The position numbers and the translations under genes are program-made. Positions 5,140 through 39,759 of a stretch of 64,000 bases of DNA are shown piece by piece. The stretch lies in IMG/VR virus record IMGVR_UViG_3300022602_000024, positions 290,430 through 354,429 of that record. One strand, written 5' to 3'. The notes under the pieces were generated by a model. The model did no database searches and was not told where the DNA came from. It saw nothing but the letters and a program-made list of their open reading frames with translations. Numbering within the stretch: position 1 is the first letter of the stretch; each line of letters opens with the position of its first letter. Origin of the DNA: a virus.

Positions 5140-6347
5140 TCTGCTTGTAATTTTGGAAAATAGCGTAAAAATCGATCGTTGGCGTTATCTCTACGGGCTT
5201 TGATCTTGGATCTAATTTCTTTGTAGAAGTTCCATGCCAGGGGAATGAACAACACCGACTCATCTGTGCCAATGCTGTCTAAATAGTCAATGCCTACTAC
5301 AGGAATATCAGTGCCAGGACAATATAATCCTTGCTTTAAAGGATTATCATCAACAACACAATCCATTTCAATTTTGGCGGCATTGATCAATGTCATTCCT
5401 TTGGCGGCTGCTCCATATCCAACAACACGATATCCTTGCGCTCTACTACTGTCAATACTGTTTTTCAAGTCTGACAATAGTGCAGTAACTCCAGTGGCCC
5501 AATCCGTATATGTACTGGGTTGATGTAGTTTGGCTTCCATTGCTAGTATGTTTTGCATATGGAAACGATTCTCTGGTTTCTTAGCCAACACAAAGATATA
5601 ACTTGTGCCATGTATAGGAGTCTTGACCACATCAACCAAGTACAGGCCAGCACGTTCAGCCAATCTACGCATCGATTCTGCATTGTAAAAACTGATGTGC
5701 TCGTGATAGATGGTGTCAAACTCACCATTAACAACCATGTCTGCTTGGCTTGTGCTGATAAAGATCTTGCCATCATGTCGCAATACACCGGCAGCAATTT
5801 GCAAGTATGTTAAAGGATCGGGAATGTGTGCAAAGGCATTTTGACTTGTTATAATATCAAATTCACGTCCCAGTTGGTCAGCACAGGCTTGATTCCAGAA
5901 TCCTTGTACCACTTGATGTCTTTTGGCACTACTAACAGGATACAAGTTCTCTGCAGGATCTACTCCGTATGTATCCATACTCAACCGTCGAAATGCATCA
6001 AGTTGACTGCCGTCATTGCACCCAATATCTAACACTGACATAGGACTATGATAAAAATGTTCACGTACAAACCTAGCATACCAATCCATATACTCAGTAT
6101 AGGTCCGACTTGTTCCGCTAACATACAGATAATGTGTATAGATTAATTCAGGATCAACTGCATGTGTAAGTTGTAAGTGATCGCAATCTTCACATCGGTT
6201 AACTGCTAATGGATAACGATCTTCGTGTTCTTGACTGGCAGCGTTGCGAAAATTATTGGCCAGGGGCTGATCATTGAGATCTAAGGTCGGCACCAGATCA
6301 TTGCCACCACAGGCAATGCATTTAAGAATAGATGTACAATGTTCCAT
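5136..6347 (-). CDS. SAM-dependent sugar C-methyltransferase
   Basis: 403 aa with three recognisable parts. First is an N-terminal zinc-binding segment (CIACGG near residues 10-15, then C..C near 51-54). Next is a class I SAM methyltransferase core with VLDIGCNDGSQL near residue 106. Last is a C-terminal domain with VVGYGAAAKGMTLINAAKI, typical of the C-methyltransferase C-terminal domain. This order is that of NDP-hexose C-methyltransferases such as TylC3 relatives. It probably methylates a nucleotide-sugar ring carbon made by the epimerase/dehydratases nearby. It overlaps the next gene (ATGA). Confidence 0.85.
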   Translation of the reverse strand: MEHCTSILKCIACGGNDLVPTLDLNDQPLANNFRNAASQEHEDRYPLAVNRCEDCDHLQLTHAVDPELIYTHYLYVSGTSRTYTEYMDWYARFVREHFYHSPMSVLDIGCNDGSQLDAFRRLSMDTYGVDPAENLYPVSSAKRHQVVQGFWNQACADQLGREFDIITSQNAFAHIPDPLTYLQIAAGVLRHDGKIFISTSQADMVVNGEFDTIYHEHISFYNAESMRRLAERAGLYLVDVVKTPIHGTSYIFVLAKKPENRFHMQNILAMEAKLHQPSTYTDWATGVTALLSDLKNSIDSSRAQGYRVVGYGAAAKGMTLINAAKIEMDCVVDDNPLKQGLYCPGTDIPVVGIDYLDSIGTDESVLFIPLAWNFYKEIRSKIKARRDNANDRFLRYFPKLQAE

Positions 6348-7072
6348 TAGTTTTTGATAGGTGATCCGTTGGGTGCAATTTGACCTTCTACGCCAAGATT
6401 GGCAATTTCTTGCACATGTTCTGCGGGCAGGAACTTGGCCAACACGTGTTCAATATCAATGTATCCGCCGGCATTGACACGTTCAGCAAAGAACATGAAA
6501 CTGTCGCGATACACTTGAATAACTTCGTCAGTCATTGAGTTAGGCCAAGACCATAGTCTAGCCATGTACTGCCAAGGTTGTGTGGTTACTTCCACTGGGA
6601 ATTGGCTTTTGAACTTGGGACCAATGATGATCTTGTCTGTGTTGGCAGAGTCTTCGTACATTGCTGGATCAAACATGTCATTGAGCACATAGCGCCCTGA
6701 CATCTTATGCACACGATCAATGCCCTCAAACTTGCCAGAATTATTCAATGCTTCTAGTGCATTACCAAAGCACATGATCTCTGTGCCGTTTTTGACTACA
6801 TCCCAGTTGTCTGAGTCATACATGGCCTGCACGTTGGGATCTTTACTGTAGTCAATGAATCCATTGCTGGCTGCAATCAAATGATTGGCCTGTTGATCTG
6901 TAATGGGTGTTCCGCAACATTCCATAACAAAGATTTTAGCAGTGGGTATCCGGCTACGAATACTGGTAATAGTATCTAGTGTTTGGTTAAGCCGTTGTGC
7001 GGCACTAAAAACACCAAACTTGCTGTTGATTGCACTTGTGACAACAAATGCGTGATTTACTTGGTTAGCCAA
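6347..7072 (-). CDS. Conserved phage protein of unknown function in glycan cluster
   Basis: 241 aa. I do not recognise a family. It starts AFVVTSAINSKFGVFSAAQRLNQTLDTI, has an ARIFVMEC-like strand (IPTAKIFVMECC) and later HKMSGRYVLND and YIDIEHVLAKFL. The layout, with a beta strand ending in a short acidic or polar motif followed by a GRY motif, is compatible with a GT-A-like glycosyltransferase but no clear DxD is seen. It lies inside the sugar operon, sharing bases with both neighbours, which supports a role in the same pathway. Confidence 0.5.
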   Translation of the reverse strand: MANQVNHAFVVTSAINSKFGVFSAAQRLNQTLDTITSIRSRIPTAKIFVMECCGTPITDQQANHLIAASNGFIDYSKDPNVQAMYDSDNWDVVKNGTEIMCFGNALEALNNSGKFEGIDRVHKMSGRYVLNDMFDPAMYEDSANTDKIIIGPKFKSQFPVEVTTQPWQYMARLWSWPNSMTDEVIQVYRDSFMFFAERVNAGGYIDIEHVLAKFLPAEHVQEIANLGVEGQIAPNGSPIKN

Positions 7073-8097
7073 CGTTTATTCTCCAATGTCCATTGTACCA
7101 TTCCGGCAATACGCTCACTCAATTTGATCTTAGGTTCCCATCCCAACTGCTTTAGCAAGCCACCATCTAAGGCATAACGCAAGTCATGTCCGGGACGGCT
7201 ACCATGGAAGTCCACCATTTCATAAACAAGTTCTTTACCTACACCAGCAGCAATCATTTGTGCCAAGGTCAAGTTATCAATTTCTTCTGTACCCACTAAG
7301 TTAAACTTGGGGCAATGTGCCCATCCGTAATCACCTGTGTGTTTGTAGTTTTGTGGCAATGTTTGTAATATAAACATCAGTCCTTCTGCTACATCTCGAG
7401 CATGAATATACATACGTGTGCCAGCTGCAGTCTTGGTAGGATCAGCGTGGATGAAAATCTTTTCTCCGTCACGTACACGTTGGATACACATGGGAATAAA
7501 CTTCTCTGGATGCTGACGCTCCCCAAATACGTTCATGGTATGTGTTACAACAATGGGCATCTTGTAAGTGTTTTCGTAAGCAACGCAGAATTCTTCTGCG
7601 GCTGCTTTACTTGCACTGTAGGGATTGGTACTGTTATAACGATCATACTCTTTATAACTTACTCCCGGAGGTGCAACACCAAAGATCTCGTCTGTGCTAA
7701 AGTACACAAAACGCTCTAGGTCGGGCAAGTTTTTACGTGCATAGTCCAACATATTGACTGTGCCCACTGTGTTGTCTAACACAAACTCCATGGGGTATGT
7801 AATACTACGATCCACGTGGCTACTGGCAGCCAAGTGCAACACAATATCAATCGGACCAATGTCGGCTACAATTTGACTGTTTAGTTCTGCTTTGATATCG
7901 TGAAAGATAATGCGTAAACGTTCACTGACCAATTTGGGATCGTGATCTTTCAACATGTCGTGCAGTCTGTTTAGATTACCGCTGATGTCCAAACGGTCTA
8001 GTGTGACCACATTCCAATCAGTATCTCGTAAAATTTTATCTATAACGTGGTGGGCAATGAATCCCGCACCACCGGTGATTAATACGTTCTTTGACAT
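7057..8097 (-). CDS. NAD-dependent dTDP-glucose 4,6-dehydratase-like enzyme
   Basis: 346 aa from the chosen start. The first codon of MSKNVLITGGAGFIAHHV at 8097 is preferred over an upstream ATG at 8148, because AGGAAC precedes it and the longer form adds an unrelated stretch before the Rossmann motif. Features are GGAGFI (NAD binding), LAASSHVDRS, STDEIFG (catalytic T-D-E as in RmlB), and YSASKAAAEEF (catalytic Y-x3-K). It would convert an NDP-hexose to its 4-keto-6-deoxy form, the usual entry to deoxysugars, supplying the methyltransferase and glycosyltransferases nearby. Confidence 0.88.
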   Translation of the reverse strand: MSKNVLITGGAGFIAHHVIDKILRDTDWNVVTLDRLDISGNLNRLHDMLKDHDPKLVSERLRIIFHDIKAELNSQIVADIGPIDIVLHLAASSHVDRSITYPMEFVLDNTVGTVNMLDYARKNLPDLERFVYFSTDEIFGVAPPGVSYKEYDRYNSTNPYSASKAAAEEFCVAYENTYKMPIVVTHTMNVFGERQHPEKFIPMCIQRVRDGEKIFIHADPTKTAAGTRMYIHARDVAEGLMFILQTLPQNYKHTGDYGWAHCPKFNLVGTEEIDNLTLAQMIAAGVGKELVYEMVDFHGSRPGHDLRYALDGGLLKQLGWEPKIKLSERIAGMVQWTLENKRWLTK

Positions 8098-8113
8098 AGT
8101 GTTCCTGTTTGAA

Positions 8114-8989
8114 TTAGCTAGTATACGGATATTTTGGCAACAAGTCAACGGCTTTGGCTTCCGGATTGCTCAAAATAAATTCGGCATACTTTTCTTGATT
8201 GTCTACAATGGTTTTAGGGAAGTACGAGTCCAATTCCACAATGCTATAACGATCGTTGGGATTGCCACGATTCCATTCTTTGCGTTCGGCAATCGACTTT
8301 TCTACATCAATCTGCTCAATAAACTCGGGACGATTAACTTCAGCATGTGCAAAGTTCTTGGCCTTGTTACGCAACCATTCGTTGTTGCCCATATAACCAA
8401 AGTGCCAACCACCATGCTCAATCACTTCACATCCATCGTTCTTGAACTGATAAGGCGCTGACATGAATTGGAAACGTATGCGTCTGAATTCTGTAGGGGT
8501 AATGTCTTTCAATAACGCCCGACGCCCGGCCATGGCCCAAATGTCATATTCGCCTGGAGTGGCTCTCATGTAATTGAACTTGAAGTTGTGCAGGCTCATA
8601 CGTAGTGCAAATAGGCTTTGATCGCTAGCAACCATGTACTGTAGTGCAGCCGGACGAATGATTTCATCCAAGTCACTGATCAAGATCAAATCATCTAGGG
8701 CAGCATCAGCAATGCCTTGGCGAATTTGATCTCTGTGGTGTGCTTCGTTAACCCAGGAATCTGGATCATTGGGCATGTCATCAACTTGGATATGGATAAT
8801 CTTATCTGCCCACTGTGCGTAGCGGGCCTTATTATCTTCGTAGTAGTAAGGCTTTGGATTACCTTGATGTGTCATATTGGCTTCAACCAAAACAAAGTGG
8901 TCGACAAAATCATATAATTCTGTTAATCTTAGTTCAAGTAGATCCAACTCATTGTAGAAGGGGAAACAATCGTAGATTTTTATTTTCAT
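8114..8989 (-). CDS. Glycosyltransferase family 17
   Basis: 291 aa. The N-terminus IYDCFPFYNELDLLELRL and the following FVLVEANMTHQG are hallmarks of GT17 (beta-1,4-mannosyl-glycoprotein N-acetylglucosaminyltransferase family). LILISDLDEIIRP near residue 100 contains the DxD-like metal site. The C-terminal part has GGWHFGYMG, also conserved in the family. The late-type box AATAAATA ends five bases upstream of the ATG, so transcription is predicted to begin at the start codon. It is transcribed divergently from the glycosyltransferase at 9045. Confidence 0.85.
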   Translation of the reverse strand: MKIKIYDCFPFYNELDLLELRLTELYDFVDHFVLVEANMTHQGNPKPYYYEDNKARYAQWADKIIHIQVDDMPNDPDSWVNEAHHRDQIRQGIADAALDDLILISDLDEIIRPAALQYMVASDQSLFALRMSLHNFKFNYMRATPGEYDIWAMAGRRALLKDITPTEFRRIRFQFMSAPYQFKNDGCEVIEHGGWHFGYMGNNEWLRNKAKNFAHAEVNRPEFIEQIDVEKSIAERKEWNRGNPNDRYSIVELDSYFPKTIVDNQEKYAEFILSNPEAKAVDLLPKYPYTS

Positions 8990-8994
8990 AGTGA

Positions 8995-9014
8995 TATTTA
9001 TTTGCTAATAAATA
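8995..9014. promoter_or_regulatory. Palindromic divergent late promoter pair
   Basis: TATTTATT-TGCT-AATAAATA is a perfect 20-base inverted repeat. It gives a late-type AATAAATA box on each strand, the minus one for the GT17 gene (start 8989) and the plus one for the gene at 9045. Confidence 0.6.
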
Positions 9015-9044
9015 CTGTACATTAATTTTCAAAGGCGGTCAACC

Positions 9045-9728
9045 ATGTATGCTGTTGTAAGCATGTGCACTTCAAACCTAGATGACCTGGGTAACTTAAC
9101 AAACAAATACAAACTCGAATACTGTGAACGCCATGGTTATGAGTTCTTCAATATCGGCGACGAAGAAATTGGCCCAGTAGACGGCCCATGGAGTTTTTCA
9201 ATGGACTGGCATAAACCACGTTATGTCAGCAACCTATTTGCTCAACGCCCAGATATTGAATGGGCACTAGTAACCGAAGCCGACGCCACCATTACCAACT
9301 TGACCATTCCCATGAGTGATCGGGTAGACAATGACTTCCATGTGGTTGTTCCAGTGGATAGACTCAACATCAATTCCGGCAACATGTTGGTACGCAATAG
9401 CCCAGAAGGTCGTGCTTACTTGCAAGCCATGTTGGCAGACGGAGACAAGTACCTTACAAATACCACCAACAATCCCATATTTGGATTGCAGTTATGGATG
9501 GTAGATACCATTGATCAACATGGTGATATCACAAAGATTGTACCACAAAAGCACATGAACAGTTACGAACTGGAAATTTACGACTATTGCGATGTCAGCA
9601 CCGACATCATGGGCAATAGCGGAGTATGGACCCGGGGCGACTGGATTGTGCACTGGCCTGGTATCAGACATGAAGTTAGACTTCAACGTGCTGCATCATT
9701 AGAAACAGAAGGAAGGATAACAAGATAA
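9045..9728 (+). CDS. Glycosyltransferase, GT34-like (galactosyl/mannosyl transferase fold)
   Basis: 227 aa. The opening AVVSMCTSNLDDLGNLTNKYKLEYCERHGYEFFN resembles GT34 proteins, which start with a short strand followed by N..Y...HgY. The segment ALVTEADATITNLTIP carries the acidic metal-binding motif in the expected place. A later GNSGVWTRGDWIVHWPG corresponds to the C-terminal H-x-P-G region of the family. It opens a plus-strand run of four genes and is preceded by a late-type box and an AAAGG ribosome site. Confidence 0.65.
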   Translation: MYAVVSMCTSNLDDLGNLTNKYKLEYCERHGYEFFNIGDEEIGPVDGPWSFSMDWHKPRYVSNLFAQRPDIEWALVTEADATITNLTIPMSDRVDNDFHVVVPVDRLNINSGNMLVRNSPEGRAYLQAMLADGDKYLTNTTNNPIFGLQLWMVDTIDQHGDITKIVPQKHMNSYELEIYDYCDVSTDIMGNSGVWTRGDWIVHWPGIRHEVRLQRAASLETEGRITR

Positions 9729-10279
9729 TGGCTATACCATTTGGAGAAGATGACACAATCAAAATAGATCGGTGTCATGCTGATTTATTAAGAGGCTTGA
9801 TAGTTGCTGGAAAACCCCGGACTGTATTGGAATTGGGCATCGGCGGTGGACAAGCAACGGATGCAATGCTAGACGGATTAGCGTATAATCAACAAGCATA
9901 CGAATACACACTGGTTGATAACTGGCTAGACTTCAACAGTACAATGCCTGCCCGAGTTGGCGAGTTATACAGCAGTAGAGTCAACATTGTTACATCCGGT
10001 GAAAAAGAATTTGTGTTCAGCACCAACAAGAAGTTTGATTTGATAATGAGTGATGCAGATCACCACCATACACAAGAATGGTTTGAGTATGTATACGAGA
10101 ATCTGCTGAATGATGATGGTATACTTTGTTATCATGATGTTATGTTAACTTCACAGTTTCCAAATTTAATGGAAATATATAACAAGTGCAAAGAACTTAA
10201 CCTAAGATACAAACTGTTTGACAAAGATAGTTTATCAACCGAAATGTGCTTTCGTGGCTTTTTAGTAATTTTTAAATAA
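9728..10279 (+). CDS. Class I SAM-dependent methyltransferase
   Basis: 183 aa. Motif I is TVLELGIGGGQATDAML near residues 34-50; the later DLIMSDADHHHTQEWFEYV resembles the D-x-D/H metal-binding area of O-methyltransferases of the Methyltransf_24 type. The start overlaps the previous stop by one base. It probably acts on a sugar or a small hydroxylated substrate, given its neighbours, but the substrate is not shown. Confidence 0.75.
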   Translation: MAIPFGEDDTIKIDRCHADLLRGLIVAGKPRTVLELGIGGGQATDAMLDGLAYNQQAYEYTLVDNWLDFNSTMPARVGELYSSRVNIVTSGEKEFVFSTNKKFDLIMSDADHHHTQEWFEYVYENLLNDDGILCYHDVMLTSQFPNLMEIYNKCKELNLRYKLFDKDSLSTEMCFRGFLVIFK

Positions 10280-10286
10280 GGCAGCA

Positions 10287-10937
10287 ATGACAAGTATTCA
10301 AGAAACATTTACTGACATATATGTTAATCGACGTTGGGATGAGCCCAACAAACCCAACGAATCGGCCAGTGGCAACGGATCAACACTGGACTTCACTAGA
10401 AATTTACGTAAAGAACTGCCAAAGTTGTTTGACATGTTTGCTATACAATCAGTATTTGACGCACCGTGTGGTGATTTAAATTGGATGAGTCAAGTGTTAT
10501 CAGAGTGCCCAGACATTGACTATATCGGCGGAGACATTGTTGCGCCGTTGATCGATCAACTCACTGAACAGTATGCCGAATATGCCAACATGGATTTTGT
10601 TAACATCAATATTATCAATGACGAGCTACCTGCTGCAGATTTAATGATCTGCAGAGACTGTTTGTTCCATCTAAGCGAAGCAGATGTCAAAACATTCTTT
10701 AGAAACTTTGTCTCTTCCGATATTGCGGCTTTGTTAGTTACATCCGATATACTGCCAGAACCCAACAGAGACATTGAGACTGGCGACTATCGTCACCTGA
10801 ATCTATTCACTGCACCTTACAACTTTACCGCCGATTACATATACGAAATCAGCGATTGGCCTTATCCTACTCCCGCTACTAGAAAAATGTTTATGTGGAG
10901 TAGAGAACAAATTGAAGAAATAGTGAGCAAATTTTAA
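10287..10937 (+). CDS. Class I SAM-dependent methyltransferase
   Basis: 216 aa. SVFDAPCGDLNWM (about 55-67) is methyltransferase motif I; YIGGDIV follows as motif II and DLMICRDCLFHL as motif IV. This DAPCGD-x-NWM type is common in proteins encoded with nucleotide-sugar pathways. It lies two bases before the next epimerase gene and follows another methyltransferase, so the three are co-transcribed. Confidence 0.8.
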   Translation: MTSIQETFTDIYVNRRWDEPNKPNESASGNGSTLDFTRNLRKELPKLFDMFAIQSVFDAPCGDLNWMSQVLSECPDIDYIGGDIVAPLIDQLTEQYAEYANMDFVNINIINDELPAADLMICRDCLFHLSEADVKTFFRNFVSSDIAALLVTSDILPEPNRDIETGDYRHLNLFTAPYNFTADYIYEISDWPYPTPATRKMFMWSREQIEEIVSKF

Positions 10938-10938
10938 T

Positions 10939-11880
10939 ATGAATATTTTTATTACTGGCATGGCAGGTATGATCGGGTTTCATACTGCCAAACATTTAAC
11001 TGCATTGGGACACACAGTAACAGGCGTAGACAACTTCAATGACTATTACGAAGTCAGTTTAAAAAGAGAACGTGCACGTATCCTGCAAGACGAGCATGGA
11101 GTCGCTGTAACAGAAGCAGATATCATTACACTAGATTACGACTCTGCATTGTCAGGTGTAGATGTAATTTTACATTTATCTGCTTATGCCAACCCACGTC
11201 ACAGTTTGGAATATCCGCAACTGTACATTGACAACAACATTACTGGCACACAAAGATTGATTGAAGGTGCAGAGCGCATGGGTATACACAATGTGGTATA
11301 TGCATCTAGTAGTTGTGTGATGCATGGACAAGAATTGCCTTGGAAGGAATCCGACAATCCTGGACATCAAAACAATCCATATGGATGGACCAAACGCAGT
11401 AATGAATGTCAATTCATATACAGTAAGATCAAAAACACAATGGGTTTAAGATTCTTTACAGTATATGGACCTTATGGTCGTCCAGACATGGCCTTGTTTA
11501 ACTTTACTAAAAACATTTTAAACAATGAACCAATCGATTTGTTTAATTACGGAGATATGAAGCGAGACTTTACCTTTGTAGACGATATTGTCCAGGGTAT
11601 TACCTTGGTTATAGACAACTGTGTCAAGCAAGACCATGTGCACGAAATCTACAACATTGGTTATGGTCAACAAGTCAATTTGATGGATTTTGTTAGCGAG
11701 ATTGAACGTTGCTTGGAGCGGAAGGCAGTGACCAACTTGTTGCCCAAGCACCCAGCAGATGTACCAGCTACTTGGGCCGATACAACTAAGATTCAGGGTT
11801 TGGGTTATCGGGCAACTACCAGTATTACTGACGGTGTTAGCAAATTCATTGACTGGTATCGCAGTTATTACCGGATTTAA
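10939..11880 (+). CDS. NAD-dependent nucleotide-sugar epimerase
   Basis: 313 aa. The N-terminus IFITGMAGMIGFHTAKHLTALGHTVTGVDNFNDYY is the Rossmann opening of UDP-glucuronate/UDP-glucose 4-epimerases (GxxGxIG; DNFNDYY is typical of UDP-glucuronate 4-epimerase relatives). YASSSCVMHG and NPYGWTKRSNE supply the Ser and Y-x3-K catalytic residues. RDFTFVDDIVQGI is the usual C-terminal motif. The first glycine-motif position is GMAGMIG rather than GxAGFIG. It converges on the FkbM gene with a four-base overlap. Confidence 0.88.
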   Translation: MNIFITGMAGMIGFHTAKHLTALGHTVTGVDNFNDYYEVSLKRERARILQDEHGVAVTEADIITLDYDSALSGVDVILHLSAYANPRHSLEYPQLYIDNNITGTQRLIEGAERMGIHNVVYASSSCVMHGQELPWKESDNPGHQNNPYGWTKRSNECQFIYSKIKNTMGLRFFTVYGPYGRPDMALFNFTKNILNNEPIDLFNYGDMKRDFTFVDDIVQGITLVIDNCVKQDHVHEIYNIGYGQQVNLMDFVSEIERCLERKAVTNLLPKHPADVPATWADTTKIQGLGYRATTSITDGVSKFIDWYRSYYRI

Positions 11881-12554
11881 TAATTAATATAACGGCTATT
11901 ATGGTTAACGCCATATAGTCGTTCTTTAGTTGCGATATTGATAAACATAATATCAACTTGAACCAACACATGATCCCCGGTATGGATTTCTAATAAATCG
12001 CTGGGGATAAATCGTTGACTGGCCATGTATTCCAAATACTCTTGTATATTTGGTGCACCTATATTGTATTTGCCTATAGGGCATTCTAGGTAAACTAAAT
12101 CCACTGCAGGCAGTATTGTTTCTGCTCCACGTAAGATATCCAACTCAGATCCCTGTGTGTCTATCTTTATAAAGTTAGGTGCAGGCATTTCGCACTCGTT
12201 AACAATAGACTCTAGAGTTCTTGCTGGAACTGTTATTGGCGTTTTACCGTCATAGATTGGTGTATTTTCTTTGTAGTAACTGTCGCCAGTGCCGCCGTAG
12301 CCGTCAGTGGTATAATACTCAACTGAGTCTCTGCCAGGGTTACTTAATATTCCGATATAGTAAGGCAAGTTAGTTCTTTGTAGTGCAGGTTCGTGTGCAA
12401 CATTGCCCTCAAACAAGTAGAAGTAACTGTTTCTTAACACGCCTGCTTTCATTGGCACGGCCCAATTGCCTTGATTGGCTCCTATGTCAAATACTGTTTC
12501 TATGCGTAACCCGTCTTGCTGAATTTGTTTGAGATAATTTTCTAATGTGTTCAC
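11877..12554 (-). CDS. FkbM-family SAM methyltransferase
   Basis: 225 aa. VFDIGANQGNW is motif I of FkbM methyltransferases. The segment NFIKIDTQGSELDILRGA is the diagnostic FkbM signature (I-D-x-Q-G-x-E...L.G). These enzymes usually O-methylate sugars or polyketides. The gene overlaps the upstream glycosyltransferase by four bases and converges on the epimerase. Confidence 0.88.
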   Translation of the reverse strand: MNTLENYLKQIQQDGLRIETVFDIGANQGNWAVPMKAGVLRNSYFYLFEGNVAHEPALQRTNLPYYIGILSNPGRDSVEYYTTDGYGGTGDSYYKENTPIYDGKTPITVPARTLESIVNECEMPAPNFIKIDTQGSELDILRGAETILPAVDLVYLECPIGKYNIGAPNIQEYLEYMASQRFIPSDLLEIHTGDHVLVQVDIMFINIATKERLYGVNHNSRYINY

Positions 12555-13507
12555 AAAAATACCGTTTTGAATTTATTCATAACTTGATCTGGGGCAAACT
12601 GTTCAACCCGCTTGCGCCAATCTTCTGTTGTTGCAAGATCACGTATATGTAATAATTTATCTCGAATTGTTTCCTGAGTATAAATTAGTCCCGAGTCTTT
12701 TAACATCAGTGCATGATTTTGATCGTTGCCACCAGCCCATGACAATACTGGTTTATTCATGTATAAGGATTCAGCAACTGCCAGTCCAAAACTTTCACCA
12801 TTGCTACGTGCGTGCAAGGTAGCATCACAGGTGTTAAAGAAGTTGGCTTTGCGTTGAGTATCATGAAACTCGGGAATGTATCGAATGTTGGCATGTTCGC
12901 CCCAAGGTTGTGTTCCAGCAAATACAAACACAAAATCGTCACGTTGAGTAACGATATCTGCAATGGCCTGTTTAACAAACATCAAGTCAAAGGTCAAAAA
13001 GCCACCTATGCGTCCTATTACTGTTTGACCGGGACGGATGTTGAGTTCTTCACGTAGATCACCTGTTGGCTCAGGCAGTGTAACAATGTGTGGCACATAA
13101 GGGCGGTTATCATTATACTGAGCGTTCATTGCCGACGCTAACCACTCACTGATATAAGCATATTCACGATACTCGGGCTTTACCTCATGACGTTGCCACA
13201 CTTCGTGCATAACCACCGGGCAATTGTCAGGAATGAATCTATTGCCGTTGTACAAGAGATCTACATGTTCTCTGTCGATGATGTCTTGAAGTTCTTGGAT
13301 ATCATCATAAGCAATAACTGTAAACTCCTCTTGTAAGTTAGCAAGAACTTCAGGTTCTGTACCTACATCAAGAGTCCAAGGCCTAGCACCATCATAACAA
13401 ATTATGCTTTCATTGCCCAGTATCGTTTGATTGTATCGTGCATAGTCCGTGATGGCAACTGTGCTACCACGATAGTTCAATATATCAGTTTGGAATAAGA
13501 TTTTCAT
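12551..13507 (-). CDS. Glycosyltransferase family 4-like
   Basis: 318 aa. The C-terminal half shows the GT-B pattern: GRIGGFLTFD, then FVFAGTQPWG, NIRYIPEFHDTQRKANFFNTCDATLHARSNGESFGLAVAESL. The E-x7-E-like stretch and the SNGESFGLAVAES segment are typical for GT4/GT1 donor binding. The N-terminal half has the ILFQTDILNYRGSTVAITDYA opening. It starts within an ATGA overlap with the small gene 13504-13665. Confidence 0.75.
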   Translation of the reverse strand: MKILFQTDILNYRGSTVAITDYARYNQTILGNESIICYDGARPWTLDVGTEPEVLANLQEEFTVIAYDDIQELQDIIDREHVDLLYNGNRFIPDNCPVVMHEVWQRHEVKPEYREYAYISEWLASAMNAQYNDNRPYVPHIVTLPEPTGDLREELNIRPGQTVIGRIGGFLTFDLMFVKQAIADIVTQRDDFVFVFAGTQPWGEHANIRYIPEFHDTQRKANFFNTCDATLHARSNGESFGLAVAESLYMNKPVLSWAGGNDQNHALMLKDSGLIYTQETIRDKLLHIRDLATTEDWRKRVEQFAPDQVMNKFKTVFL

Positions 13508-13691: not shown

Positions 13692-13723
13692 ATTATAATA
13701 GCATATATTGATTTGTGTGTCAA
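13692..13723 (-). promoter_or_regulatory. Sigma70-like promoter
   Basis: TTGACA (13718-13723) with TATTAT at 13695-13700 (17-base spacer), overlapping TATAAT at 13692-13697 (20-base spacer). It lies about 27 bases upstream of the 53-aa gene and overlaps the end of the SGNH gene. Confidence 0.5.
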
Positions 13724-14466
13724 ACGTTTGTGATACCAAAACGCCCATAATCAAAAGGCACAATTTGGTTTTCGTACTGATTGTAGTTTAACATAAGGTC
13801 TTTGGCAATATCTTTGAACATGGTGTGATACTCATCACTCATATGGCCAACACGATCCATTTGATATGGCGTTACACCAATCAAATCACCTTCGTGTGCG
13901 CTAATAGTTTCAAATGCAAAGTCTAACAATACACCTCTAGCGAAATGTCTCTTGGCCATTTCTCGTGATAGCTCTGTATTAGGTAAAAATATAAATCGAG
14001 TTTGGGGAAATTGGGCAGGCAAATCTAAACACCATTTGACCATTTGTTCGTAGTTGAACTGGGCCTGTGCTTGATTGTGCAGGACTTCGTAGTAAAGTCC
14101 CAGTGCTTGTATGCACTTTTCTGCTTCGCCGGGCTGAAATAAATGCCGGTCTTCTTCGTAGATAGCTCTGTTTTCGGCGTGTGCTGATAAGATCTTTTGC
14201 CATTTGGGATCATCTATGTACAAACGATTGTCCCAGGTAAAAGTAAAGAAAGCATAATCAAACTCCACGCCGCGAGCCTGTGCTTCTTTCCATTGTGTGA
14301 TAGCGTAGTATTGATTGCTACCACCCAACCCTGATGTGATTACAGGAGCATCGAGTTCTTCTAATAGGCGTTGTGCCCAGATTTTCTTTTCTGGGGGCAC
14401 TCGATACGTTGGCCAACGATGCCAAACTATGTCAATATAACTGTCACCAAATAGTCCAATTTTCAT
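13720..14466 (-). CDS. SGNH/GDSL-type hydrolase-like protein
   Basis: 248 aa. The N-terminal KIGLFGDSYID contains the GDS nucleophile block. SGLGGSNQYYAI near residues 43-54 supplies the glycine and asparagine oxyanion-hole blocks, and DRVGHMSDEYH near the C-terminus supplies the D-x2-H catalytic block. SGNH enzymes deacylate or transfer acyl groups on polysaccharides, fitting the glycan cluster. Its start is preceded by AAGGACAAGA. The whole 5' leader is the 271-nt structured RNA closed by a 22-bp stem. Confidence 0.65.
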   Translation of the reverse strand: MKIGLFGDSYIDIVWHRWPTYRVPPEKKIWAQRLLEELDAPVITSGLGGSNQYYAITQWKEAQARGVEFDYAFFTFTWDNRLYIDDPKWQKILSAHAENRAIYEEDRHLFQPGEAEKCIQALGLYYEVLHNQAQAQFNYEQMVKWCLDLPAQFPQTRFIFLPNTELSREMAKRHFARGVLLDFAFETISAHEGDLIGVTPYQMDRVGHMSDEYHTMFKDIAKDLMLNYNQYENQIVPFDYGRFGITNV

Positions 14467-14478
14467 TCTTGTCCTTGT

Positions 14479-14749
14479 GTACTAATAAGTTTGAGCACAA
14501 TACATCTGCTTTTCGACTGTGGACCACAATGTGTGTTGGAGCGACCAACAACCACTAACTGAGCAAGCTCAGTATTGTTCATGGAATCTTAAACGTTTTC
14601 GCAGTTTTAAAATCTAATATACCCTCGGGAGTACCCGAATCCGCCTATCCAGCGCACGAGGTATGGGTTGTGAATTGCTTCACTACTGCTACTAAGCCTA
14701 CCACACGTATCAGATAGTCGCCACACTTTGTGCTCAAACTTATTAATAC
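14479..14749 (-). ncRNA. Putative 271-nt structured RNA with 22-bp end-to-end stem
   Basis: Arms 14479-14500 and 14728-14749 are complementary over 22 bases with a single G-U pair, and the 5' arm begins at the predicted +1 of the promoter at 14756-14784. Inside are further hairpins on the same strand, including ACTGAGC-TT-GCTCAGT and CGGG-TACT-CCCG. No open reading frame fills the region. The 3' arm ends 12 bases before the SGNH start codon, so the RNA may be a processed stable RNA or a 5' leader controlling that gene. No known family was recognised. Confidence 0.55.
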
Positions 14750-14755
14750 AAGCTG

Positions 14756-14784
14756 ATTATAAGTTATTTACACACAAAAGTCAA
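14756..14784 (-). promoter_or_regulatory. Sigma70 promoter of the 271-nt RNA
   Basis: TTGACT (14779-14784), a 17-base spacer and TATAAT (14756-14761) on the minus strand. The predicted start is 14749-14750, exactly the 5' end of the closing stem. Confidence 0.7.
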
Positions 14785-14801: not shown

Positions 14802-14889
14802 TGGCGGAAACGGTGAGATTTGAACTCACGGAACTTTTCAAGTCGCTGGTTTTCAAAACCAGAGCCATAGACCACTCGACTACGTTTCC
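14802..14889 (-). tRNA. tRNA-Ser(UGA)
   Basis: Acceptor GGAAACG pairs with CGTTTCC, discriminator G, and CCA is encoded. The anticodon loop is TTTGAAA with anticodon TGA. A long variable arm fits a serine tRNA. 88 nt. Confidence 0.95.
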
Positions 14890-22975: not shown

Positions 22976-24523
22976 TCAACGCTTTATATTAAATAAAGGA
23001 CCAAACCAGGCCGCATCTAAGATTTTTTTGTTTACCCCTTTACCGATTAACCAATTATAATAGGTATTAATAAGATCCACCGCATCAGATTTTAATAAAC
23101 TACGATGAATTCCGAATACTAATATATCCGTGTCGCCATAATCTAATGTTTCAGGACTAAAAAAATAATGATATAACTTGGCATCAAAATGCCTCCCATG
23201 TAAAGTGTGCCATACTGTTGTAGGGACTTCTGGTATAATATCTTCATTTTCAGTCAGGGCATATATGCTGTATATCATAAATTCGCTAGGGGTATGCCTG
23301 TCATTTTCATCAGTAGGTTTATTCCAATCAATCAATTGAGTTATGTCGTTTTCTCTTAGTATACGACGAGCCAATGATGTTTTTATAACAAAAGGAGTCA
23401 TTGGAATAGGCAATTTGTCTGGTATTGTTAACCCAAGATCGTTGCATTTTTCCTGTAGCCATCTTAATGCCCAAAAGTTTGTTGTTACTTCTACGTTAGT
23501 GCTGTTTCCGTGACCCACTGGCCAGCTAGATAACTTTGTTGGCTTAAAAAATAAATTTTTACTATCTAATAGAAGATATTTGCTATTAGGTATTTGATCT
23601 GCTATTTGCAGTTTGATTTGTTGGTGCCTTATATAGCCATATTCATCTGGAGTTGACTGATTATAATCATGTATTAATTTTAATTGATGTCTAGAATGGT
23701 GCGGTAACAATAAGGTAAGCCACTCAGCATATGATGTATCATTGTCTTCAATCACAACATAATGCACACAAGTATCTACTACAAATAAATCAATTGTGTG
23801 TGCCAATAGTTGCATGGCAAATTTATCTCTAGTACAGGTAACAGTTACGATGACTAGGTCGTGCGTTTCAGTTTCTGATGCAACTCCCAAACTGATGCCC
23901 GAATGTACTGGTATTACTTTATCTCTGAAATAATGTATTAATATCGGAATCGAGTCGGTATCAGATGTAATACCAAACTGGTCGTTCTGATTGGTTTTAA
24001 CTATTTCAGAAAGTATTCTTACTCCAGATTTCTTAGATCGTTCAACTATTGCAACAAGATTTTTGCATAATACATGGTAGTCGCCTTCAAGTACATCATT
24101 GTCAATGTTGTAAACATCAGTTAATGCAGCTTTGATAATCTCGTGCCCAGGTACAGACCCTATAAATCCCTGAAACATAAGAAATGTATCTTCAGATTTT
24201 ACTGTAAAAAAATCATATTTTTCTACCAAGTAGTTTATATCTTTTACTAATACTGCATCAGCATCAATATAAACTCCCCCGCGGACATATAAAAAATAGT
24301 ATCGAAAAAGATCGGCCTTGTGTGGGCCTGACTGTATACTGAGAAATTTTTCTTCTATTAACGGAAAATCGTCTGCAGGATATTCTTTAAAAAAATCCAA
24401 TATATCATCATCTGTAAAAAATTGGTATTGCCAATCGTCACCAGTGAAATATTTGAGTTTGTCTATTACATATTGCGGAGGTTTTTTATTTTTAGTTGTT
24501 TGTACAAGTATTTTTGGAATCAT
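22976..24523 (-). CDS. Two-domain glycosyltransferase (GT32-like plus DUF6492-like)
   Basis: 515 aa. Residues 1 to about 210 match GT32/OCH1-type transferases: IPKILVQTTKNKKPPQYV at the start, FTDDDI, and HKADLFRYYFLYVRGGVYIDADAVL with the catalytic DxD. Residues from about 220 read like the DUF6492 family (LVIVTVTCTRDKFAMQLL, then YGYIRHQQIKLQIA and KYLLLDSKNLFFKP), which is also glycosyltransferase-like. Two transferase modules in one chain suggest consecutive sugar additions. It stands alone among tRNA genes, far from the glycan cluster. Confidence 0.75.
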   Translation of the reverse strand: MIPKILVQTTKNKKPPQYVIDKLKYFTGDDWQYQFFTDDDILDFFKEYPADDFPLIEEKFLSIQSGPHKADLFRYYFLYVRGGVYIDADAVLVKDINYLVEKYDFFTVKSEDTFLMFQGFIGSVPGHEIIKAALTDVYNIDNDVLEGDYHVLCKNLVAIVERSKKSGVRILSEIVKTNQNDQFGITSDTDSIPILIHYFRDKVIPVHSGISLGVASETETHDLVIVTVTCTRDKFAMQLLAHTIDLFVVDTCVHYVVIEDNDTSYAEWLTLLLPHHSRHQLKLIHDYNQSTPDEYGYIRHQQIKLQIADQIPNSKYLLLDSKNLFFKPTKLSSWPVGHGNSTNVEVTTNFWALRWLQEKCNDLGLTIPDKLPIPMTPFVIKTSLARRILRENDITQLIDWNKPTDENDRHTPSEFMIYSIYALTENEDIIPEVPTTVWHTLHGRHFDAKLYHYFFSPETLDYGDTDILVFGIHRSLLKSDAVDLINTYYNWLIGKGVNKKILDAAWFGPLFNIKR

Positions 24524-33234: not shown

Positions 33235-34716
33235 TTAGCTTACCTTATTAAAATTTTTAAGTGCATTAATATGATCCGACAAACTGGATAAATCGCCCCA
33301 GGATCCAGGATATTTCAAATCTAATACTAGTTTTGATAATTCGATGTAACGTCTGAATCTTTCCTTAACAGTAAAATCTGGATTTGTTGTTACATCAAAA
33401 AAATATGTGTTATACGTTTCGTTTACAATACCTACTTCATGTTTCATTGCATCAATGGGAGTATTTTTTAACAATACAAAAGGTTGATGCAATGTTACAT
33501 TAATAACTGTTTCGTCTAATAGATACTTTTGGTATCTTTTAAACATTAACAAAGTATCTTCGTGATCTTCTAGTGTTTCAGTTGGGTATCCAGTAAACAT
33601 CAATAATGTATTTTTAATTTTATATTTAGAACACATTTCTAAATGGTAATCAAGATCTTCATTAGTAAACTTTTTACCCATATGAAATCTAACTTTGTCA
33701 CTACCGGTTTCTACTCCAACAATAATGTTATGACAACCTGATTCGTTCATTAGTTTATAAAGTTCTTCTTTGTGTTGTACTGCAGATCGTATAATAAATT
33801 GTCCAGTATATTTAATATCACGAAACATAATATTATTTTTTCTTAACTCGGCTAACTTTTTTATCAAATCTGTGAATTGTTTCAACGATCCGTTGATCAA
33901 ACTATCAGTAAACCAGAATTGTGTAATGCCCGTTTCTTCTATATGTTTGGTCAATTCCAATACTATATTATCTGCACTTCTAAATCGAAACTTCTTCCAT
34001 ATATGCCCAACATCACAGAATGTACATCTACGAACACACCCACGGCTGCCAGTTAAACTGATTGAATGTGTTAAATTTAATCCTGGATTATAGTTATCAA
34101 AATTAATATTTTTATATGTAGGTAAAACACAATCATCTAAATTATCAATTTGTAATGCCCACGATTCGTGGGGATTGCTCTTGGAATTTAGTCCGATTTC
34201 CTCATGACCTTTAAGGAATTGATCAAGAACATATTCACCTTCCCCTAGTACATAATAGTCTATTAGGTTTTTTTCAAGAAACATTTTTCCCGCGGTAATG
34301 TTTGATTCAAATTCATATGAAATACCAGGACCGCCCGCAATAACCGGAGTAGAAGATTTATATTTTAACTTTGTTAAGAAACGGCCAGTCAGCTGAATTT
34401 GCTGGTAGCTAAAAACCGTGATTGCAATTAAATCAGCTGACATAGCAAGCACTGTATCTACTGCCGAATCCAGTATCAAATCAATGTTGTCAAGCAATTC
34501 ATTATTTTCAAATTGTTCCAATGATGTAAACATTGTGTAGGCTTGATTCCACTGGTCTTCGCCTAATGCATTTCTGATATATATGTTTAAATCTAAGATT
34601 TCATGCTTTATGGAATTAGCTTCGCATATGCCCGACAAAAATGCCAATGCAGGTGGCGGCTTTTCAACCGTTAGCAGACCCGACGCCATTAGAGCAACTT
34701 TATTAAATTTTAACAT
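33235..34716 (-). CDS. B12-binding-domain radical SAM protein
   Basis: 493 aa. The N-terminal 170 residues look like a cobalamin-binding-type Rossmann domain (LAIT-like strands, STPVIAGGPGISYEFE, and YYVLGEGEYVLDQF). The radical SAM motif is C227-x3-C231-x2-C234 (GSRGCVRRCTFC), followed by FWFTDSLING and IIVGVETGSD, typical of the MiaB/BchE-like B12 radical SAM group. There is no clear D-x-H-x2-G cobalamin motif, so B12 may not be bound. It overlaps the next upstream gene by 14 bases. Substrate unknown; it sits in the UvsX operon. Confidence 0.85.
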   Translation of the reverse strand: MLKFNKVALMASGLLTVEKPPPALAFLSGICEANSIKHEILDLNIYIRNALGEDQWNQAYTMFTSLEQFENNELLDNIDLILDSAVDTVLAMSADLIAITVFSYQQIQLTGRFLTKLKYKSSTPVIAGGPGISYEFESNITAGKMFLEKNLIDYYVLGEGEYVLDQFLKGHEEIGLNSKSNPHESWALQIDNLDDCVLPTYKNINFDNYNPGLNLTHSISLTGSRGCVRRCTFCDVGHIWKKFRFRSADNIVLELTKHIEETGITQFWFTDSLINGSLKQFTDLIKKLAELRKNNIMFRDIKYTGQFIIRSAVQHKEELYKLMNESGCHNIIVGVETGSDKVRFHMGKKFTNEDLDYHLEMCSKYKIKNTLLMFTGYPTETLEDHEDTLLMFKRYQKYLLDETVINVTLHQPFVLLKNTPIDAMKHEVGIVNETYNTYFFDVTTNPDFTVKERFRRYIELSKLVLDLKYPGSWGDLSSLSDHINALKNFNKVS

Positions 34717-38274: not shown

Positions 38275-39759
38275 TTAACGTTTGATACCAGCCAAACTAC
38301 GGATAAAGTCCAAATCATCTGCTTCACGTAGTTTAACGTTGGGATCAGTTACTGGATCATCCATACTGCTTGCACCATACTGATCATTTGGATGTGCATC
38401 TTCGGGACTAACTGGATTCACATGATTGGTGTGTGCGTCATCTACATTGCGTTGCCCGATCGTTAATTGGCTCAACACTTCTGGCTTGTGATCACGTAGC
38501 CATGTTTTAACCAATGGTCGAGCATCTTGGTCCGGACCTTGATCTTTGGCATAGTGATAAATGGCTATATTTAAATCAGTTAAGTCATCGCCGGGGAACA
38601 ATTCTTTTAAATCAGTTGTAGCATCAATACCTTGCATACCAATGGTCCAAGGTTGTGACATTTTGTCTTGTAGTGCGTCAATATCAAAATCTGCAGTGGA
38701 TTCTGATTCGTCCCATACACTTTCAGTTACACCGTCAGCCCACTCGTCTAATTCATTACCCAGTTGTGCGGCTGCTTCTGATTGATATTTCTTGTATGCT
38801 TTATAAACTGTTGGCAATGCTTCAGTAAAACGATCATCATAGACCTTTTTAACAAAACGTTCACGTAGTGCATCTACATCCACATCTTCTTCAGCAGATG
38901 ATTCAGGAACAAACTGCTCTATAAATTCTTGGTAGTGCTTTCTGTTGGCCAGATGACGTAGTGTATTTTTAAGTTGTAGGTAATGGCGTGTTGCAGCCTG
39001 AGCCATGTCAGCCGTTTCAGAGTCTTCAAATTGTCGACGTTTGGTAGCACGAACAAAATGACTCATACTGCTCATTTCGCCAACCATGTTGGTAATGCAC
39101 TCGCCAATTTCATCACGCATATCGCCACCGTGTGTGATATGATTACACATGGCACGAGCACCGTGTAGGTTCTTAAATGGCATTAGGAAACGTTCGCCAC
39201 GTGGAGTTTCCACAAATATTTCACGTATCTTACGAGCACGGTCACCACGCACTTCATCATTTACTAGTCCATCATGCTTGATCAGCAAGCGGCATTCACC
39301 AATGTCGGCATAACTGTTACGGCTTGTTCCGTATAGTCGGCTTTCAGTTACTGCTACATCATTGGCACTAGCAACATTATCAACCTTGGCCTGTTGTTTA
39401 ATATCCTGCAGTTCAAGATTGCTTTTGGTAATGTCACGAGTGTCAAAAGTCAGCAAGTTACGACGTGCAAAGTCACGCATGTTGCGCAGGAACATGTACC
39501 AATCTTTGCGTTGCTCCCGGTCCATTTCCGTGGATATGTTTTGTCCATAGTAGACTTTTAAACTGGTTTCATCAATTAAACTAATAGTAACGGTACCAAA
39601 TTGGGCACCAGTAGGATCACTGTAAGTAAAGTTAAAAAACCGTGCTTTTTCAGGATCTGTGGTGGCTTTGGCTTTTTCATCGCCGAGCGTCACATTTTCA
39701 AAGCGTGAACGGACTTTATCAAATAGGGCGGCTGCAACGGATTCAATTTCTTTGGACAT
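38275..39759 (-). CDS. Conserved-type phage protein of unknown function
   Basis: 494 aa. No family recognised. The N-terminal part includes ARFFNFTYSDPTGAQFGTVTISL, the middle has ETPRGERFLMPFKNLHGARAMCNHITHGGD, and the last 70 residues are low-complexity and acidic. Position between terminase and gp32, with a late promoter seven bases before the ATG, suggests a late, probably virion or packaging-related protein. Confidence 0.6.
   Translation of the reverse strand: MSKEIESVAAALFDKVRSRFENVTLGDEKAKATTDPEKARFFNFTYSDPTGAQFGTVTISLIDETSLKVYYGQNISTEMDREQRKDWYMFLRNMRDFARRNLLTFDTRDITKSNLELQDIKQQAKVDNVASANDVAVTESRLYGTSRNSYADIGECRLLIKHDGLVNDEVRGDRARKIREIFVETPRGERFLMPFKNLHGARAMCNHITHGGDMRDEIGECITNMVGEMSSMSHFVRATKRRQFEDSETADMAQAATRHYLQLKNTLRHLANRKHYQEFIEQFVPESSAEEDVDVDALRERFVKKVYDDRFTEALPTVYKAYKKYQSEAAAQLGNELDEWADGVTESVWDESESTADFDIDALQDKMSQPWTIGMQGIDATTDLKELFPGDDLTDLNIAIYHYAKDQGPDQDARPLVKTWLRDHKPEVLSQLTIGQRNVDDAHTNHVNPVSPEDAHPNDQYGASSMDDPVTDPNVKLREADDLDFIRSLAGIKR

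Follow-up and report, generated by a model that had tools for sequence, protein, structure and literature searches.

What kind of molecule is delimited by two long complementary arms placed at the end of a phage tRNA array, immediately before a protein-coding gene? The question arises on the minus strand of a 64,000-nucleotide stretch of viral DNA (hereafter the window, taken at its full length) with which a 354-kb virus record ends. This record encodes a T4-type myovirus tail sheath, a tail-sheath stabiliser and a terminase that shares ~54% identity with its counterpart in Pseudomonas phage PA5oct and ~43-53% with those of phages Phosso, Atu_ph07, GAP32 and CBB. A first-pass annotation, made from the letters of the window, had proposed there a 271-nt RNA closed by a 22-bp helix, and had offered three possible roles: a stable RNA processed by RNase III, a circularisation-prone RNA or a large leader switch. 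Comparison with related phages leads us to a different emphasis. The locus probably specifies a stand-alone, trans-acting structured noncoding RNA, belonging to a new family lodged in the tRNA arrays of jumbo myoviruses and perhaps having a role of the stable-particle type.

The ends do pair, as had been proposed, with figures that must be revised to 23 continuous pairs enclosing 227 nt, in an RNA of 273 nt (positions 14478-14750). The 5' arm of this terminal helix, P1, occupies 14728-14750, and its inverted-repeat partner lies at 14478-14500; the two 23-nt arms are 96% complementary, the lone mismatch becoming a G-U pair in the RNA. The earlier view that the helix is beyond chance is borne out: its longest exact stretch reaches 18 bp, and 60 dinucleotide shuffles of the entire 64 kb produced exact arms of up to 15 bp. 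The promoter was also correctly placed. A sigma70-type sequence, TTGACT-N17-TATAAT (14784-14756), matches the consensus at 11 of 12 positions and sets +1 at ~14750, the start of P1, hence the predicted length of 273 nt. A 248-aa gene (13720-14466) follows on the strand of RNA and promoter; 11 nt, AAGGA among them, separate its ATG from the 3' arm. The adjacency is thus as first described, but the SGNH/GDSL label of this gene corresponds to a weak, sub-threshold match to PF13472. Relatives of the protein were sought and none was found, so that it could not guide a search for homologs of the RNA. As for folding, the whole RNA reaches -97.5 kcal/mol on the minus strand (z = -5.0), while the interior deprived of the P1 arms has an unremarkable z of only -1.4; folding energy alone is therefore little proof of anything beyond the terminal helix, and the argument for a structured RNA is comparative, not energetic.

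Relatives, the search for which had been suggested at the outset, do exist. A blastn comparison with 50 related contigs retrieved two homologs (71% identity), and exact-pattern scans of IMG/VR combined with a covariance model extended the set to 14 further jumbo-phage contigs carrying the RNA end to end, one of these records being split over two pieces (L168 and L173). Six of the carriers that include a terminase gene, the window's phage among them, group together, 80-84% identical to the window; no match to the RNA came from the phages tested at 68-73%, in a sampling where some contigs are fragments and absences of this RNA, or of the GOLLD RNA discussed below, weigh little. With the window and one homolog as queries, blastn found nothing relevant in 50,697 GenBank phages, and the covariance model matched none of the ten named phages tested. 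In bacterial and archaeal genomes (one per species) six pattern matches appeared at the stringency used, none of them confirmed by the model, and the tRNA regions of sister phages, searched with filters off, returned short hairpin noise only. The best reading is that the family is carried by one clade of jumbo myoviruses, giant freshwater-type phages, where it resides in tRNA arrays. Rfam, queried at gathering and at permissive thresholds with the window and eight homolog loci, gave tRNAs and chance matches only. No description was found in the open-access literature searched, though one may exist elsewhere, and this conserved structured RNA family is apparently previously undescribed.

The window RNA matches the covariance model end to end, with 14 aligned homologs. 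In the structure alignment (14 members, 13 of them distinct, 264 model positions), 12 helices account for 75 pairs; standard pairing is found in 97.4% of the cells as compared to 86.9% in shuffles, in an alignment that was fitted to the covariance model and hence favours structure somewhat. Compensatory change on both sides affects 42 of the 75 pairs, where shuffles yield 18.0 (none of 500 as high). The covariation score, 0.393, falls to 0.181 on shuffling (again 0/500) and to 0.05-0.06 when partners are slid; displacing them by 1-3 columns lowers pairing to 34-40%. P1, P5 and P12 are apparent on simple inspection of the raw sequences. The arms of P1 are kept as pairs in the relatives, with compensatory changes in 16 of 23 pairs, and this is strong support for the initial idea of a discrete RNA with pairing ends. 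The inverted repeat had thus been rightly recognised; what had escaped notice were the homologous family, its setting in tRNA arrays and 11 inner helices.

Reading inwards from P1, a hairpin, P2 (14716-14727), exposes an invariant GUGGCG loop. The nearly invariant P3 joins AUCUG (14711-14715) to CAGAU (14504-14508), and P4 pairs 14701-14708 with 14516-14522, the members between them showing all four Watson-Crick types at position 46/243; between the 3' strands of P4 and P3 lies a near-invariant internal loop, CGAAAAG (14509-14515). P5 (14685-14689 with 14601-14605) is compensatory in 5/5 pairs, different phages having ACAGU/ACUGU, ACGAU/AUCGU, UUGGC/GCCAA or GUGGU/ACCGC. Beyond it, P6 (14621-14662) carries the hairpins P7 (14643-14654) and P8 (14625-14638, with an invariant UACU loop), and the segment 14524-14584 is closed by P9 (14579-14584 with 14524-14529), which encloses hairpin P10 and the stem P11/P12. 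Conservation of unpaired bases is concentrated in the GUGGCG loop, the P3/P4 internal loop AU/CGAAAAG, an AUUUUA(A/G)A stretch and the UACU loop. Pairing of the latter with an upstream AGUA, as a pseudoknot, was envisaged, but covariation is uninformative about it given that the loop never varies. No reading frame is conserved across the family in a coding test. Identity as a structured noncoding RNA, as judged from these alignments, is close to certain.

The position of the RNA is as telling as its fold. In the window it closes, on the downstream side, a same-strand array of 21 tRNA genes; its upstream neighbour is tRNA-Ser(UGA) (14802-14889, minus strand). In all records it lies on the tRNA strand, a tRNA-Ser precedes it in nearly all relatives, and in most records it sits between this tRNA and a downstream tRNA-Thr(UGU). 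Beside the array, the window also has a cluster of glycosyltransferase-like, methyltransferase-like and sugar-nucleotide epimerase-like genes (7057-13507 and 22976-24523). In nine records P1 begins 0-4 nt after the 3' end of a tRNA (tRNA-Ser in eight, tRNA-Val in L103). The other six, the window included, have a promoter-like sequence and no abutting tRNA, the upstream tRNA being 38 nt to about 1.7 kb away; with a 17-nt spacing the window and L093 reach 11/12 matches, and the other four only 8-9/12. On the downstream side, tRNA-Thr(UGU) follows within 12-18 nt in five records, while genes spanning about 1.5-1.65 kb intervene in six or more others. In L092 this interval (6124-7603) holds genes for a solute-binding protein of DctP-like type (PF03480) and for a redoxin-like one (PF08534), unusual contents for an array of phage tRNAs; the DctP-like protein was recognised by eye also in L096, L100, L102 and L104, and its gene is preceded by a late-promoter-like TAAATA sequence.

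This synteny bears directly on the proposal of a large leader switch. The arrangement in the window, where only AAGGA and a few bases stand between helix and start codon, would agree with a 5' leader or riboswitch acting in cis on the SGNH-like gene. However, the next feature in the 14 relatives is tRNA-Thr or some other gene, such as the DctP-like one, and the SGNH-like gene is not a conserved neighbour; since the downstream gene varies, the RNA is not its leader, an explanation that we regard as very improbable. How the RNA is made is well supported by sequence: the 5' end would be created at the base of P1 by transcription initiation or by tRNA 3' maturation, the 3' end by cleavage or trimming back to P1, and the helix would then seal both ends, resulting in a stable RNA. 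That this stable RNA is possibly processed by RNase III, as had been suggested, is plausible because the closing duplex is 18-23 bp long and no terminator-like site follows it. By contrast, the idea of a circularisation-prone RNA is without support.

The same duplex might instead be the whole point of the locus. The locus could be an array spacer or processing element in which P1 serves as an RNase III site, helping to release the flanking tRNAs, and the RNA would then be a by-product; a closing helix of 18-23 bp fits this account, as do the linkers of 0-4 and 12-18 nt to tRNA-Ser and tRNA-Thr in several phages. Yet an interior of 200 nt kept in both sequence and structure, with many invariant loop bases, is more than a spacer would require, and in six phages a promoter-like sequence belongs to the RNA itself, 38 nt to about 1.7 kb away from an upstream tRNA; this account is improbable. 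The 23-bp terminal inverted repeats also recall a small transposable, MITE-like DNA element. Here the case is nearly closed: the RNA is present as a single copy in the virus genome, its position in tRNA arrays is conserved, and its pairs evolve as those of an RNA, internal helices and G-U pairs included. Covariation and synteny thus refute this explanation, to which we grant next to no credence. A more serious competitor is a trans-acting regulatory RNA that serves as a decoy, binding a protein of host or phage origin (RNA polymerase, the ribosome, a nuclease) in the manner of 6S RNA or of an anti-defence RNA. The closed ends would suit it, and the near-invariant loop between P3 and P4 resembles a binding site, as do the invariant GUGGCG and UACU loops. 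6S RNA is of a similar size class, has paired ends and acts in trans. It forms an elongated rod interrupted by a central bubble, whereas the new RNA has a multi-branched core, lacks the long internal bubble typical of 6S and matches neither 6S nor any other Rfam family; a decoy is accordingly a possibility to keep in mind, if not a likely one.

We return, then, to an RNA acting on its own account from within a tRNA array, for which there are precedents. GOLLD (RF02032) is likewise a large structured RNA of unknown function in phage tRNA arrays, and is found near tRNA islands (PMC12286853); ROOL (RF03087) is an ornate phage RNA, often close to tRNA islands (PMC12286853). With 264 model positions the new RNA is smaller than either (416 and 574, respectively). 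It gave no match to the GOLLD covariance model down to E = 5, and no GOLLD was present in any carrier genome searched; the ROOL model matched nothing in scans of the window or in carrier records, the latter search being run without a positive control. In phage T4, RNA C and RNA D (species 1 and 2), whose position at the end of the tRNA cluster was confirmed, are discrete stable RNAs with unknown roles (PMC3014915, PMC9697503). They are shorter (139 and 119 nt, against 273 nt in the window) and, in a quick fold, lack the long end-to-end helix of the new RNA, the covariance model of which has no match in the T4 genome. Because no sequence homology was detected, the new RNA is not filed under GOLLD, ROOL or the T4 RNAs, and the best reading is a new family of array-embedded structured phage RNAs, analogous to these but not detectably homologous.

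GOLLD deserves particular attention. It exceeds the Rfam cut-off in three related jumbo phages: the contig G037 (L140 12025-12489, i.e. G037:40024-40488; covariance model, 214 bits), Sinorhizobium phage Phosso (W02 33533-34001) and Xanthomonas phage XacN1 (W08 38570-38983 and 357365-357778). In G037 it lies among tRNAs and contains a tRNA-like gene. The same phage has a tRNA with anticodon CUA (L140 2429-2503), labelled Pyl by ARAGORN and possibly reading UAG. None of the three GOLLD carriers yielded a match to the new RNA. This apparent mutual exclusion is suggestive only, as it involves just three GOLLD carriers and fragmentary contigs. To be sure, the functional analogy proceeds from genomic position and phylogenetic pattern, not from common sequence or biochemistry. 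The RNA would be a stable RNA-only or RNA-protein particle, co-produced with the phage tRNAs during infection; that it takes the part played elsewhere among related jumbo phages by GOLLD, and not that of a regulator of the neighbouring gene, is a tentative proposal. Still more speculative is the idea of a new jumbo-phage RNA machine, RNA-only particle or catalytic or ribonucleoprotein scaffold, made with the tRNAs and evolutionarily interchangeable with GOLLD.

A second candidate structured RNA is located in the same tRNA array (28010-28720, minus strand). It includes a 21-bp exact inverted repeat (28433-28541), its 691-nt fold has z = -7.7, and a core of 57-100 nt (AACGAGGUCCUG...AAACGGGCGG) is 75-90% identical in G061, G060, G052, G006 and the GOLLD-bearing G037; it has no match in Rfam. 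Phage RNA families with covariation as strong as that of the 273-nt RNA are few, and the RNAs of tRNA arrays, GOLLD, ROOL and T4 RNA C and D, have gone for years with no known function. A compact family of 264 positions, with a clear alignment, defined ends and GOLLD-bearing sisters, would make tractable the question of why large RNAs are retained in the midst of phage tRNAs. If the exchange with GOLLD is real, then, together with the second RNA at ~28010-28720, the tRNA arrays of jumbo phages would be platforms for exchangeable structured RNAs.
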